Assembly (NCBI GenBank): GCA_018268315.1
Contig: JAFDWU010000005.1
Span: 146,294-210,293 of the forward strand
Source: Armatimonadota bacterium
GTDB lineage: Bacteria > Armatimonadota > Fimbriimonadia > Fimbriimonadales > Fimbriimonadaceae
Reading direction: 5' to 3'
DNA length: 64,000 bases
Below the pieces are notes generated by a model. That model searched no databases, had not been told where the DNA came from, and worked only from the letters and a program-made list of their open reading frames with translations. Position 1 is the stretch's first letter. Each line of letters opens with the position of its first letter. The position numbers and the translations under genes were made by a program. Below, in pieces: positions 56,838 to 61,140 of this stretch.

Positions 56838-58112
56838 CTAAAGACTCTCCAGCCCTTCCCCGCGCTCAAGCGCAGCGGCGAATGCATGCGCCTGCGCAGC
56901 GGGCGTTAAGCGGCTCTCCGCCATCGCCCGGCAGCCCTCCCGCAACTTAGCAAGCCCCTCAGCATCCGCACACAACACCGAGCGCAAGCCACAAGCCAAG
57001 TCCTCAACATCCCCCAGGCGCGCCCGATACCCCGTCTCGCCGGACACCACCAAATCCTTCCCCACCCCCATATCAAAACAAACCACCGGCGTGCCGGACA
57101 TGATGCTCTCGTTGATCATCAGCGGACCCGAGTCCTCGATGGAGGGGCAGACGAACGCATCCGCTGCCCGATACATGGTCGCCAGCGCCTTGCGGTCCAG
57201 GTAACCCATGTGCCGCGACTCAAAGGGCAAATCCCCCGGCAACGCCGAGCCGCCCGCGTAGGCCAGAAACGGCTTAACCGGAAAATCCATCCCCTTCAGC
57301 CGAGACAAAGCATCCAGCAGCAACTGCATCCCCTTGCGCTTCTCGTGCAGATGCTGGGCGCCGAAGAACAAAACGCGCGCATCCGAAGGTAAACCAAGCG
57401 ACTGCCGCGCCGCGCTTTGCGCCAGCTCCGGGAAATCCTTGGGCGAGATCGCGATCGGAATCCGCGCCATGCGCGCGCCCTTCCAAATCGAAGCAGCCTT
57501 GATCTGATCCGAGCAGTGCCCGCTTGGCGAAACAATAATTGGCGACATGGAAGCAACCGCCGCCTGCCGCGCCTGCCATTGCCGCCGGCTCATGTCGTTC
57601 TCCTTGCGGGATTTAATCGCCGGGCAGTGACCGCACTGCTTCTCATATCCCCGGCACGAGTAGGCGTAGTGGCAGCCGCCGGTGATCACCGCCATATCCA
57701 TCATGTAAACCACCACCTGGCAGCCGCAAAGCTTATGCAGCTCGGCAAGCAGAGAGAACGAGGCAAAGTAGTCGGTCCACAGCGCAATGACGGCATCCGG
57801 CTTAAACGGCAACTGGGCAAGCAAATGCGCCGCGGAAGGTGTTCCAAAGCGCCACTCGGGAATGAAGGTCGGGTCTTCCTTTTCGCTCTTCCAAAAACGG
57901 TCCGCCAAGGTCTTGCGCATGGCTCGCTTTACAAACAGCGCCCGCTGAGAGGGCGGAGTGATCTTGACCAGCAGGCTGTCCGCGCCTTCCGGCAGCTTAT
58001 CGCCAACCGCCACGCACGTCTCATGCCCCAGTTCGGCCAAAGAATGGGCAAGGGTCAGCGCGACGGAGCCGGTGCTGCCGTACGGCCACGTATTGAGGAT
58101 GGCGATTTTCAC
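56838..58112 (-). CDS. Glycosyltransferase, GT4 type
   Basis: 424 residues, GT-B fold. The N-terminal half opens KIAILNTWPYGSTGSVALTLAHSLAELGH, the acceptor side of GT4 enzymes, and has an unusual Cys-rich insert (GGCHYAYSCRGYEKQCGHC). The C-terminal half carries RVLFFGAQ, HMGYLDRKALATMY, then ADAFVCPSIEDSGPLMINESIM with the E-x7-E motif that holds the nucleotide sugar. It probably adds one sugar of the exopolysaccharide repeat unit. It overlaps the aminotransferase gene by 4 nt and faces the export operon. Confidence 0.88.
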   Translation of the reverse strand: MKIAILNTWPYGSTGSVALTLAHSLAELGHETCVAVGDKLPEGADSLLVKITPPSQRALFVKRAMRKTLADRFWKSEKEDPTFIPEWRFGTPSAAHLLAQLPFKPDAVIALWTDYFASFSLLAELHKLCGCQVVVYMMDMAVITGGCHYAYSCRGYEKQCGHCPAIKSRKENDMSRRQWQARQAAVASMSPIIVSPSGHCSDQIKAASIWKGARMARIPIAISPKDFPELAQSAARQSLGLPSDARVLFFGAQHLHEKRKGMQLLLDALSRLKGMDFPVKPFLAYAGGSALPGDLPFESRHMGYLDRKALATMYRAADAFVCPSIEDSGPLMINESIMSGTPVVCFDMGVGKDLVVSGETGYRARLGDVEDLACGLRSVLCADAEGLAKLREGCRAMAESRLTPAAQAHAFAAALERGEGLESL

Positions 58113-59278
58113 GCCTTGAAGCTGCGGATTGCCTCGACGACCCTGAGGAGGTCCGACTGCGAAAGATCGTTATACAGCGGCAGCCGCACCAGCCGGTCGC
58201 TGATGTTCTCGGTGACCGGGCACATGCCGCGCCCGACCTTCTCGCCCATCGGGCTGTTGTGCAGCGGCACGTAGTGGAAAACCGTCAAGATGTCCCGATC
58301 CCGCATGTGCTGGATGAATCGCGTGCGCGTCTCCAAGTTCGGGGCGAGCATGTAAAACATGTGATAGGGCTGGGCGCAGTGCTCGGGAGAGTACGGCCGC
58401 TTGAAGCTGTTCTCATTGGCCCAGTCCTCTAATTCGTTCCAATATGTGGACCATATGTGCTCGCGCCTGGCTTGAATCTTCTCCCACTCCTGAAGCTGGG
58501 CGAACAGGAACGCGGCAAGGATATCGCTTGGCAGGTAGCTAGAGCCTTCATCCACCCAGCGATACTTATCCACCTGGCCGCGGAAGAACTGGCTGCGGTT
58601 CGTGCCTTTCTCACGAATGATCTCGGCGCGGTCAAAGTAGCTTTCGTCGTTCAAAACCAGCGCCCCACCTTCGCCGCACTGAATGTTCTTGGTTTCGTGG
58701 AAGCTTTGGGTGGCGATCGCGCCAAACGAGCCAAGCGGCCTGCCCTTATAAGAGCCAAAAAGCCCGTGGGCGTTGTCCTCGATCACCTTAATTCCGTTCC
58801 TATCTGCGATGGCGGTTATCTCATCCATCTCGCAGCCGACGCCCGCATAGTGCACAACCACTATCGCCTTCGTCTTCGGCGTGATGAGCGAGGTGAGCTG
58901 CTTCTCGTTCAGGTTCAAGGTATCGGGCCGGATATCGCCGAATACGATGTTCGCGCCGCGCAGCACGTAGGCGTTCGCGGTGGAGACGAACGTGAAGCTG
59001 GGCATGATGACCTCATCGCCGGGTTTCAGCTCCAGCAGCAGCGCCGTCATTTCCAGCGCATGGGTGCAAGACGTAGTCAGCAGCACCTTATTCGCGCCGC
59101 CGGTGTGATACGAAATCAGTTCGTTGCAGCGCTTGGTGAATTCGCCATCGCCGCTAAAATGCCCTCGGTCGTAAAGCTGGATTAAGAGGTCCGATTCCTT
59201 GCCGGTTAAGTACGGCTTATTGAACGGAATCTTTGTCAACGTTTTGACATCAGTGGGCATATAGGTTAAAACGAGCAT
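58109..59278 (-). CDS. rffA: dTDP-4-amino-4,6-dideoxyhexose transaminase (RffA/WecE type)
   Basis: About 389 residues from the ATG at 59278; an ATG at 59260 (MPTDVKTLTKIPFNKPY) is equally possible. DegT/DnrJ/EryC1/StrS fold: TTSCTHALEM, PSFTFVSTANAYVLRGA, HYAGVGCEMDEI, EDNAHGLFGSYKG and the PLP lysine in SFHETKNIQCGEGG (Lys about 197). The sequence matches RffA, which makes dTDP-4-amino-4,6-dideoxygalactose from the 4-keto sugar and glutamate. It implies an amino-dideoxy sugar in the polysaccharide; the upstream dTDP-glucose enzymes are not in the window. Confidence 0.87.
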   Translation of the reverse strand: MLVLTYMPTDVKTLTKIPFNKPYLTGKESDLLIQLYDRGHFSGDGEFTKRCNELISYHTGGANKVLLTTSCTHALEMTALLLELKPGDEVIMPSFTFVSTANAYVLRGANIVFGDIRPDTLNLNEKQLTSLITPKTKAIVVVHYAGVGCEMDEITAIADRNGIKVIEDNAHGLFGSYKGRPLGSFGAIATQSFHETKNIQCGEGGALVLNDESYFDRAEIIREKGTNRSQFFRGQVDKYRWVDEGSSYLPSDILAAFLFAQLQEWEKIQARREHIWSTYWNELEDWANENSFKRPYSPEHCAQPYHMFYMLAPNLETRTRFIQHMRDRDILTVFHYVPLHNSPMGEKVGRGMCPVTENISDRLVRLPLYNDLSQSDLLRVVEAIRSFKA

Positions 59279-59351
59279 ACCCGCCGCCAAGTCGCATGCC
59301 GCCCAAACAGATAGCTACGAAAACGGCTTGATCGTGGCATAATAATAGTCA

Positions 59352-59415
59352 GTGCTGAGGGGCGCTGCGACCCGGAGAACGGGCCAGGCTCAGCACGGAT
59401 TTGGTAACGGCGCTC
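59352..59415 (+). promoter_or_regulatory. S-adenosylhomocysteine (SAH) riboswitch aptamer
   Basis: P1 is GTGCTGAG (59352-59359) with CTCAGCAC (59389-59396), all 8 pairs. P2 is CCCG (59371-59374) with CGGG (59380-59383). The conserved core GCGCTGCGACC and GGCCAGGCTC lies between, and the 3' GCGCTC (59410-59415, preceded by AACG) can form the pseudoknot with GGGCGC (59360-59365) by one G-U and five standard pairs. This matches the SAH riboswitch consensus, and the next gene is ahcY, the gene it controls elsewhere. A -10-like TAATAAT (59339-59345) just before it would start the RNA near the aptamer. Confidence 0.92.
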
Positions 59416-59444
59416 GCAAGCCATTCGGGTTTGGGAGCGCTTTT
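59410..59444 (+). terminator. Intrinsic terminator competing with the SAH aptamer pseudoknot
   Basis: GCGCTC (59410-59415) pairs with GAGCGC (59435-59440), and after a G-G mismatch CAAGCC (59417-59422) pairs with GGTTTG (59428-59433) over an ATTCG loop; TTTT follows at 59441-59444. The first arm is the same sequence needed for the aptamer pseudoknot. Without SAH this hairpin would stop transcription; with SAH the pseudoknot takes the arm and ahcY is read. A second possible stem, TTTTCGCT (59441-59448) with AGCGAAAA (59471-59478), would cover the ribosome site. Confidence 0.75.
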
Positions 59445-59479
59445 CGCTTCTAAGCCCAAACGAAAATAGGAGCGAAAAC

Positions 59480-60886
59480 ATGTCCACAGCAATGAAAACC
59501 GACTTTCAAGTCGCCGACCTTAGCCTTGCCGAATGGGGCCGAAAGGAAATCCGCATCGCGGAAACCGAAATGCCCGGGTTGATGGCTATCCGCGAGGAGT
59601 TCGCGAAAAGCAAGCCGCTTGGCGGCGCGCGCATCGCCGGCTCTCTGCACATGACCATCCAAACCGCGGTGCTCATTGAGACCCTGAACGAGCTTGGCGC
59701 CGACGTGCGATGGGCAAGCTGCAACATATTCTCAACCCAAGACCACGCGGCGGCAGCAATCGCCAAGGGCGGCACTCCGGTGTTCGCGGTCAAGGGCGAA
59801 TCGCTTGAAGAGTATTGGGAATACACCCACCGCATCTTCGAGTGGTCCGACGGCGGCACACCGAACATGATCCTCGACGATGGCGGCGACGCCACCCTGC
59901 TTATCCTTCTTGGAAGCAAGGCGGAGCAAGACCGCAGCGTCATCGCCAAGCCGACCAACGAGGAAGAAGAGGCGCTTTATGCCTCCATCGCCAAGCGGTT
60001 GGATTCCGATCCCACGTTCTACTCGCGCATCAAGGCGAACATCAAGGGCGTAACCGAGGAGACCACCACCGGCGTTAAGCGGCTGTATCAGCTTCAGAAG
60101 ACCGGCGATCTGCCTTGGCCAGCGTTCAACGTGAACGACTCGGTCACGAAGTCCAAGTTCGACAACCTTTACGGTTGCCGCGAGTCGCTGGTCGATGCCA
60201 TCAAGCGCGCCACCGACGTGATGGTGGCGGGCAAGGTCGCAGTGGTTTGCGGCTATGGCGACGTTGGCAAGGGTTCCGCGCAGGCGCTTCGGGCGCTCAG
60301 CGCTCAGGTTTGGGTGACGGAAGTCGACCCGATTTGCGCGTTGCAGGCGGCGATGGAAGGGTATCGCGTGGTGACGATGGAAGAAGCAGCGGATAAGGCC
60401 GACATCTTCGTAACCGCCACCGGCAACTTCCACGTAATCACCCACGAGCACATGATCCGCATGAAGAATGAGGCGATTGTGTGCAACATCGGCCACTTCG
60501 ACAGCGAGATCGACGTTGCCTCGCTAAAGAAGTACCAGTGGGAGAACATCAAGCCGCAGGTCGACCACATCATCTTCCCGGATGGCCGCAGGATTATCCT
60601 GTTGGCAGAGGGTCGGCTGGTGAACCTTGGCTGCGGAACCGGGCACCCGTCCTACGTAATGTCCTCCAGCTTCGCGAATCAGGTGATGGCTCAGATCGAG
60701 CTGTTCACCAAGCCGGGCGAGTACGCGCCGGGCGTGTACGTCCTGCCGAAGCATTTGGACGAGAAGGTGGCGCGCTTGCAGCTTAAGAAGCTGAACGTGC
60801 AGCTTTCGAAGCTGCGGGACGAGCAGGCGAAGTACATCGGAGTATCGGTAGACGGTCCGTACAAGCCGGATTCGTACAGATACTAA
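59480..60886 (+). CDS. ahcY: Adenosylhomocysteinase
   Basis: 468 residues, full length. Opens [27 protein letters not shown] (family start), then [32 protein letters not shown], the [20 protein letters not shown] block with the catalytic Lys and Asp, the NAD-binding GYGDVGKG at about 258-265, and the C-terminal KPDSYRY tail that reaches into the partner's NAD site. It splits S-adenosylhomocysteine into adenosine and homocysteine, relieving inhibition of methyltransferases. AGGAGCG lies upstream of the ATG. Regulated by the SAH riboswitch before it. Confidence 0.97.
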
Positions 60887-60938: not shown

Positions 60939-60950
60939 GTTCCTCTTCTT

Positions 60951-61140
60951 AACCACAGAGGGCACAGAAATCACTGAACACGCTTACTCCTTTTTCTGCG
61001 ACTTCTGTGGTTTGAATTAGAGAACCACGGAGGGCACAGAATTCGCTGAGAAATCTCTAAGATCGAGGGCTTCCCCTTCAGTGTCCTCTGTGCCTTCAGT
61101 GGTTTGAAGAAGGCGACCACGGAGAACACGGAAATCTCGG
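60951..61140. repeat. Palindromic repeat cluster A
   Basis: At least two full units and one partial. Unit 1 starts AACCACAGAGGGCACAGAAA (60951) and ends TTCTGTGGTTTGAATT (about 61003-61018). Unit 2 starts AACCACGGAGGGCACAGA (61023) and ends TGTGCCTTCAGTGGTTTGAA (about 61089-61108). Unit 3 is a left arm only, ACCACGGAGAACACGGAAAT (from 61116). Left and right arms are inverted copies, so each unit can fold as a long hairpin. The spaces between arms are not conserved. Together with cluster B this fills the otherwise gene-free stretch from the ahcY terminator to 61204. Confidence 0.82.

Follow-up and report, generated by a model that had tools for sequence, protein, structure and literature searches.

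The leader of ahcY, the adenosylhomocysteinase gene of this Armatimonadota bacterium, carries an SAH riboswitch that very probably acts as an ON switch, through a predicted terminator that shares one strand with the pseudoknot of the aptamer. Directly visible in the DNA are the match to the aptamer, the strand common to both structures, the hairpin and the T run behind it, and ahcY as the target. The features concerned are given below in the coordinates of the window, by which we mean the whole 64-kb stretch of DNA that was analysed.

59338..59343, + strand: -10-like hexamer CATAAT, picked by eye, just 5' of the aptamer
59351..59422, + strand: SAH riboswitch aptamer RF01057, full-length match of 56.3 bits
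59352..59358, + strand: 5' strand of P1, partner 59390-59396 (Rfam alignment and sequence)
59360..59365, + strand: 5' arm of the pseudoknot, GGGCGC, complementary to 59410-59415 with one G.U pair
59371..59383, + strand: P2 hairpin CCCG-GAGAA-CGGG, 59371-59374 with 59380-59383 (Rfam alignment and sequence)
59390..59396, + strand: 3' strand of P1 (Rfam alignment and sequence)
59410..59415, + strand: GCGCTC, the strand shared by the pseudoknot (3' arm) and the terminator (5' arm), from sequence, stem energy and conservation
59410..59444, + strand: predicted intrinsic terminator, stem 59410-59440 (-21.0 kcal/mol) and TTTT at 59441-59444; homologous hairpins with T runs in 64/69 leaders
59427..59457, + strand: predicted third helix, 13 bp, terminator 3' arm 59427-59439 with 59445-59457, -20.7 kcal/mol
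59441..59478, + strand: predicted ribosome-site hairpin, 59441-59452 with 59467-59478, 11-12 bp, about -12 kcal/mol, covering AGGAG
59468..59472, + strand: Shine-Dalgarno site AGGAG (sequence), with a 7 nt spacer to the ATG at 59480
59480..60886, + strand: ahcY, adenosylhomocysteinase, 468 aa (TIGR00936, 608.7 bits, cut-off 497.6)

The segment 59351-59422 is a genuine, well-conserved member of the known SAH riboswitch class. A sequence-only reading had recognised the aptamer core (P1, P2 and pseudoknot) and proposed a search with the Rfam covariance model; run over the 64-kb window, RF01057 matched the + strand there with an E value of 1.1e-7, its score lying well above the gathering cut-off of 37 bits and its match spanning model positions 1-78 of 78. 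This was the sole RF01057 match found in the 2.8-Mb genome, and no other riboswitch class reached the Rfam gathering threshold in the window. P1, P2 and the pseudoknot, with the GAGGRGCGY core and the 3' GCGCTC, are found both in the Rfam alignment and in a pair table of 119 leaders (69 from Armatimonadota and 50 from Proteobacteria; one further leader of the 120, L082, was left out as its core is off pattern, and for L076 the arm was taken one base out of register, which leaves the counted pair unaffected). In that table the pseudoknot pair 59361/59414 covaries, being A-T in 86 leaders, G-C in 9, G-T in 24 and A-C in none, and the G-T form is that of the window's own leader. The leader as a whole (59349-59482) folds with a z-score of -4.34, a stability equalled by 1 of 200 shuffles.

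The gene downstream is an SAH-recycling one, as is typical of RF01057, and its TIGR00936 score confirms the target that had been proposed. Among the 69 Armatimonadota loci with the riboswitch, tblastn places ahcY directly downstream in 68, and the remaining locus (L146) holds too little downstream DNA for an ahcY match. On the other side of the leader lies a divergent neighbour, a WecE-like sugar aminotransferase gene (58109-59290, - strand; NF008687, 551 bits), and repeated stretches of the type accacggagggcacagaa were seen by eye downstream of ahcY, at 60950-61130.

A strict generic scan called no promoter in 59250-59500. A TATAAT-like hexamer (at least 5/6 positions) is present 9-17 nt before the GAGG core in 56/69 related leaders, against 18% of shuffles. 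Since this hexamer lies just before the aptamer in so many leaders, the RNA most likely begins at P1, with a predicted start near 59350.

The hairpin described in the sequence-only reading, 6+6 bp followed by TTTT, is present as well. Its two blocks, 59410-59415/59435-59440 and 59417-59422/59428-59433, are separated by one G.G mismatch, and TTTTCGCTTCT stands directly 3' of it. As a stable G+C-rich hairpin with an immediate T run (it is followed by TTTTCGCT), it passes both the loose and the strict terminator test that we applied. The T run is short here, TTTT and then CGC; a strict generic consensus scan called 0 terminators in 59250-59500, in our reading because of the stem mismatch and the short T run. 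Across the Armatimonadota loci, a hairpin that starts in the pseudoknot arm and is followed by T-rich sequence occurs in 64/69, against 157/1380 shuffled sequences (20 per locus, with dinucleotides and pseudoknot arm preserved), a shuffle rate of 11% that makes the loose test alone not stringent. The shuffle comparison covers this loose test only; the strict test counts 63/69 Armatimonadota leaders. Stem positions 7 to 12, the six pairs beyond the pseudoknot arm, are paired in 58-64 of the 64 loci with three to six standard pair types each, and the 5' side of the pseudoknot-arm half is nearly invariant across the 64 hairpins, as the aptamer demands. The proposed competition of a terminator for GCGCTC is thus upheld as a prediction, and across the Armatimonadota that carry the riboswitch the predicted terminator is conserved and its stem covaries. 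No terminator is seen in L016, L115, L117, L122 and L144 (5/69) by the loose test, to which the strict test adds L008 (6/69). In L115, L117 and L144, two of which (L115 and L144) have very short leaders, the predicted partner of the arm is the ribosome-site/start region instead, which suggests that the platform has been switched within the phylum.

By analogy with the riboswitch family, from which we infer SAH binding, termination and induction, the switch would work as follows. With SAH bound, the pseudoknot would hold GCGCTC (59410-59415), the terminator would be blocked and the polymerase would read through; with SAH absent, GCGCTC would instead go into the terminator hairpin, stopping transcription before ahcY. 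An ON response to SAH is what this geometry implies, and it fits the task of ahcY in removing SAH: raised levels of SAH, a toxic by-product, would lead to more AhcY, which hydrolyses it to adenosine and homocysteine.

How far this arrangement differs from that of known SAH riboswitches can be judged from the relatives of the protein. Among the 80 best AhcY relatives from named genomes, 58 have an SAH riboswitch (20, 19, 11 and 8 per successive 20), seven of them from Armatimonadota and 51 from Proteobacteria (50 assigned by record title, L083 by its tree position). These 51 leaders, drawn from the 73 non-Armatimonadota loci among the 80, include near-copies and are not independent. The proteobacterial ahcY riboswitches (RF01057, beta/gamma) are alike in aptamer, pseudoknot arm and target gene; they differ in host and in expression platform. 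The strict terminator test, identical for both sets, is passed by 63/69 Armatimonadota leaders and by 3/51 proteobacterial ones, and a predicted pairing between the pseudoknot arm and the ribosome-site/start region is seen in 10/69 and 37/51, respectively. From these two contrasts, the riboswitch-bearing Armatimonadota appear to use mainly the predicted transcriptional form, while for most of the sampled proteobacterial relatives the prediction is that the arm hides the ribosome site. The terminator platform is not exclusive to Armatimonadota, since L039, L059 (a Burkholderiales MAG) and L089 (Paenalcaligenes hominis) pass the strict test; in the ahcY leaders of L059 and L089, for example, the pseudoknot arm is part of a predicted hairpin with a T run behind it, a form that is rare in the proteobacterial sample. 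With the looser test, 47/51 proteobacterial leaders could be scored and 3 pass, one of them (L038) with its hairpin past the start codon. In their original description of the SAH riboswitch in 2008, Wang and colleagues reportedly proposed a terminator for some members. The SAM/SAH riboswitch RF01727 likewise binds SAH and is a separate class with an unrelated fold; it gave no match in the 64-kb window at the gathering threshold. Two leaders are unusual in their layout: L041, from a Burkholderiales MAG, has tandem SAH riboswitches before ahcY (L041:2187-2256 and 2352-2450, 61.3 and 48.5 bits), and L014, whose leader is unusually long, has, a short distance ahead of the ahcY start, a second AACGGCGCTCG segment that resembles the pseudoknot arm with its flank.

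The proteobacterial pattern raises the alternative that control is mainly translational here too: the helix 59441-59452/59467-59478 would hide AGGAG, the SAH-bound leader would unfold it by way of the third helix, and the upstream hairpin would be a weak attenuator. A pairing of TTTTCGCT with AGCGAAAA that could hide the ribosome site had been proposed beforehand as a second layer of control. The pairing exists, is longer than claimed (11-12 bp) and is predicted in the free leader; what did not hold up is its generality. In the window leader, the ribosome site has an accessibility of 0.00 in the terminator state against 0.29 in shuffles (p 0.02), and of 0.18 in a bound-like state with the pseudoknot arm removed, a gain over the terminator state that falls short of significance even here (p 0.10). 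The same comparison was made for 51 of the 64 Armatimonadota terminator leaders, 13 being dropped (6 with more than 110 nt from arm to start and 7 with a segment too short to shuffle). Over these 51 leaders the mean difference between states is 0.026, no better than in shuffles (Wilcoxon p 0.28), and shifts above 0.2 go in both directions, 7 opening and 6 closing. The ribosome-site layer is thus not supported as a family-wide feature, and we do not count translational control among the general features of the system. When the pseudoknot arm is blocked, the window leader in its lowest-energy fold still pairs the ribosome site, which counts against the ON-switch reading, as it would weaken the ON state unless another helix opens the site. 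Although the frequent pairing of the arm with the ribosome-site/start region in the proteobacterial relatives lends mainly translational control some plausibility, the scarcity of that pairing in Armatimonadota and the presence of terminators in 64/69 leaders speak against it, and we regard it as improbable.

An unexpected third alternative helix is predicted in the leader. In the 64 terminator-bearing leaders, the segment between the T run and the ribosome site tends to be complementary to the 3' arm of the terminator, and the resulting helix would compete with both the terminator and the ribosome-site hairpin. Its pairing energy has a mean z of -1.22 over the 64 leaders (p <0.05 in 22), and the leaders' own pairs average -12.1 kcal/mol against -10.1 when arms are swapped between loci (lowest of 2000 permutations, -11.2). 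Taken by genus in families f1 (that of the window) and f5, the mean z is -1.34 (SE 0.23), with z below 0 in 19/21 genera. Controls in the same two families pair the terminator 3' arm with coding (0.01), upstream (0.02) or aptamer (-0.38) sequence, or the 5' arm extension with the segment before the ribosome site (+0.35). The signal is absent in family f17 (-0.15, 5 genera), where the controls are just as scattered (coding -0.76, 5' extension -0.90, upstream -0.28; 6 genera each). As the segment is transcribed after the termination point, the helix cannot itself prevent termination. One could imagine that the Fimbriimonadaceae platform is three-stranded, the segment after the T run mimicking the terminator 5' arm and latching the read-through RNA in the ON state, so that the transcription decision would be coupled to translation. 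We consider this doubtful. The helix could form only once the polymerase has read through; the latch is a guess, and the ribosome-site accessibility test gave no support for this role of the helix.

The predicted terminator-based switch is not confined to one genome. The sequence-only reading had judged an SAH riboswitch in an Armatimonadota-like genome worth recording. The phylum was right: the six best AhcY relatives among named genomes, 81-84% identical, come from MAGs titled Fimbriimonadaceae, Armatimonadetes/Armatimonadota or Chthonomonas. The riboswitch is no isolated case, being present in at least 69/291 Armatimonadota genomes (E up to 0.001; 64 of the 69 above the cut-off), with 57 in f1, 1 in f5 and 11 in f17. 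Infernal's stricter filters were used, which makes 69/291 a lower bound, and the same filters apply to a scan of 101 related genomes. In these 101, the best AhcY match is 76-85% identical in 39 and 63-64% in 2 (G092 and G094), 50 have only a distant AhcY (best piece 41-51% identical) and none was found in 10. The genomes that carry the SAH riboswitch are precisely the 39 whose AhcY is of the 76-85%-identical type, a correspondence established by comparing the lists by hand, so the riboswitch goes with the gene. Both AhcY types occur within single genera (g18, g19 and g30), and no known riboswitch reached the Rfam gathering threshold before ahcY in 14 loci, 12 of the distant type and the two intermediate ones. 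These intermediate genes, G092:C20:48106-49503 (L160) and one on G094:C507 (L163), are thus AhcY forms of 63-64% identity with no recognised SAH riboswitch.

This exact tracking of a proteobacterial-like AhcY type (39/39) is what would be expected if the aptamer were an inherited passenger, received with ahcY from another lineage and placed before a hairpin that ends transcription constitutively without ligand control, but from genus to genus the terminator 5' arm keeps the sequence of the pseudoknot arm even as the remaining stem changes, and the pseudoknot pair covaries where an unused aptamer should decay, which makes this reading very unlikely.

The history of the gene was approached with AhcY trees built on hand-picked sets of 100 and 96 of 162 AhcY rows, which kept 63/73 non-Armatimonadota rows (the ten omitted comprise near-duplicates, one row with a stop and a few more). 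A starred fork (98) in the first tree unites the type-A proteins of Armatimonadota with 28 rows that are mostly beta-proteobacterial. That tree suggested that the phylum had acquired ahcY on two separate occasions, which was not upheld: when the 30 Armatimonadota type-A rows are all constrained to one group, the trees fit equally well or better (p-AU 0.685 and 0.564), and a tree holding the 63 non-Armatimonadota rows together is also not rejected (p-AU 0.702). As both constraints are acceptable, we make no claim of nesting among Proteobacteria or of a direction of transfer.

In the literature, the SAH riboswitch is described in seven lineages of beta- and gamma-proteobacteria, where it lies upstream of ahcY (excerpt of PMC4239095), and in Burkholderia cenocepacia (excerpt of PMC4603805), and it is cited beside the SAM/SAH class found upstream of metK in Rhodobacterales (excerpt of PMC2864571). 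The excerpts of PMC10907184 and PMC9495176 hold nothing on its expression platform. Searches of the open-licence literature that combined SAH riboswitch with the older phylum name Armatimonadetes, or Fimbriimonas with riboswitch, returned no paper.

To conclude, the switch class itself is already known, and it is its spread in Armatimonadota, together with its regular pairing with a likely transcription stop, that is worth recording. Three aspects go beyond a routine case: the predicted transcriptional platform across the carriers of the phylum, the tie to one AhcY type and the third helix. These results add a little-studied phylum to the range of a small and well-understood riboswitch class. 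They also offer a natural pair of lineages that apparently connect one aptamer to different outputs, mostly transcription in the first and mostly translation in the second. Besides, the association of the riboswitch with one AhcY type, while the other type has none, may provide a clean case for studying how a gene and its RNA switch travel together and are rewired.
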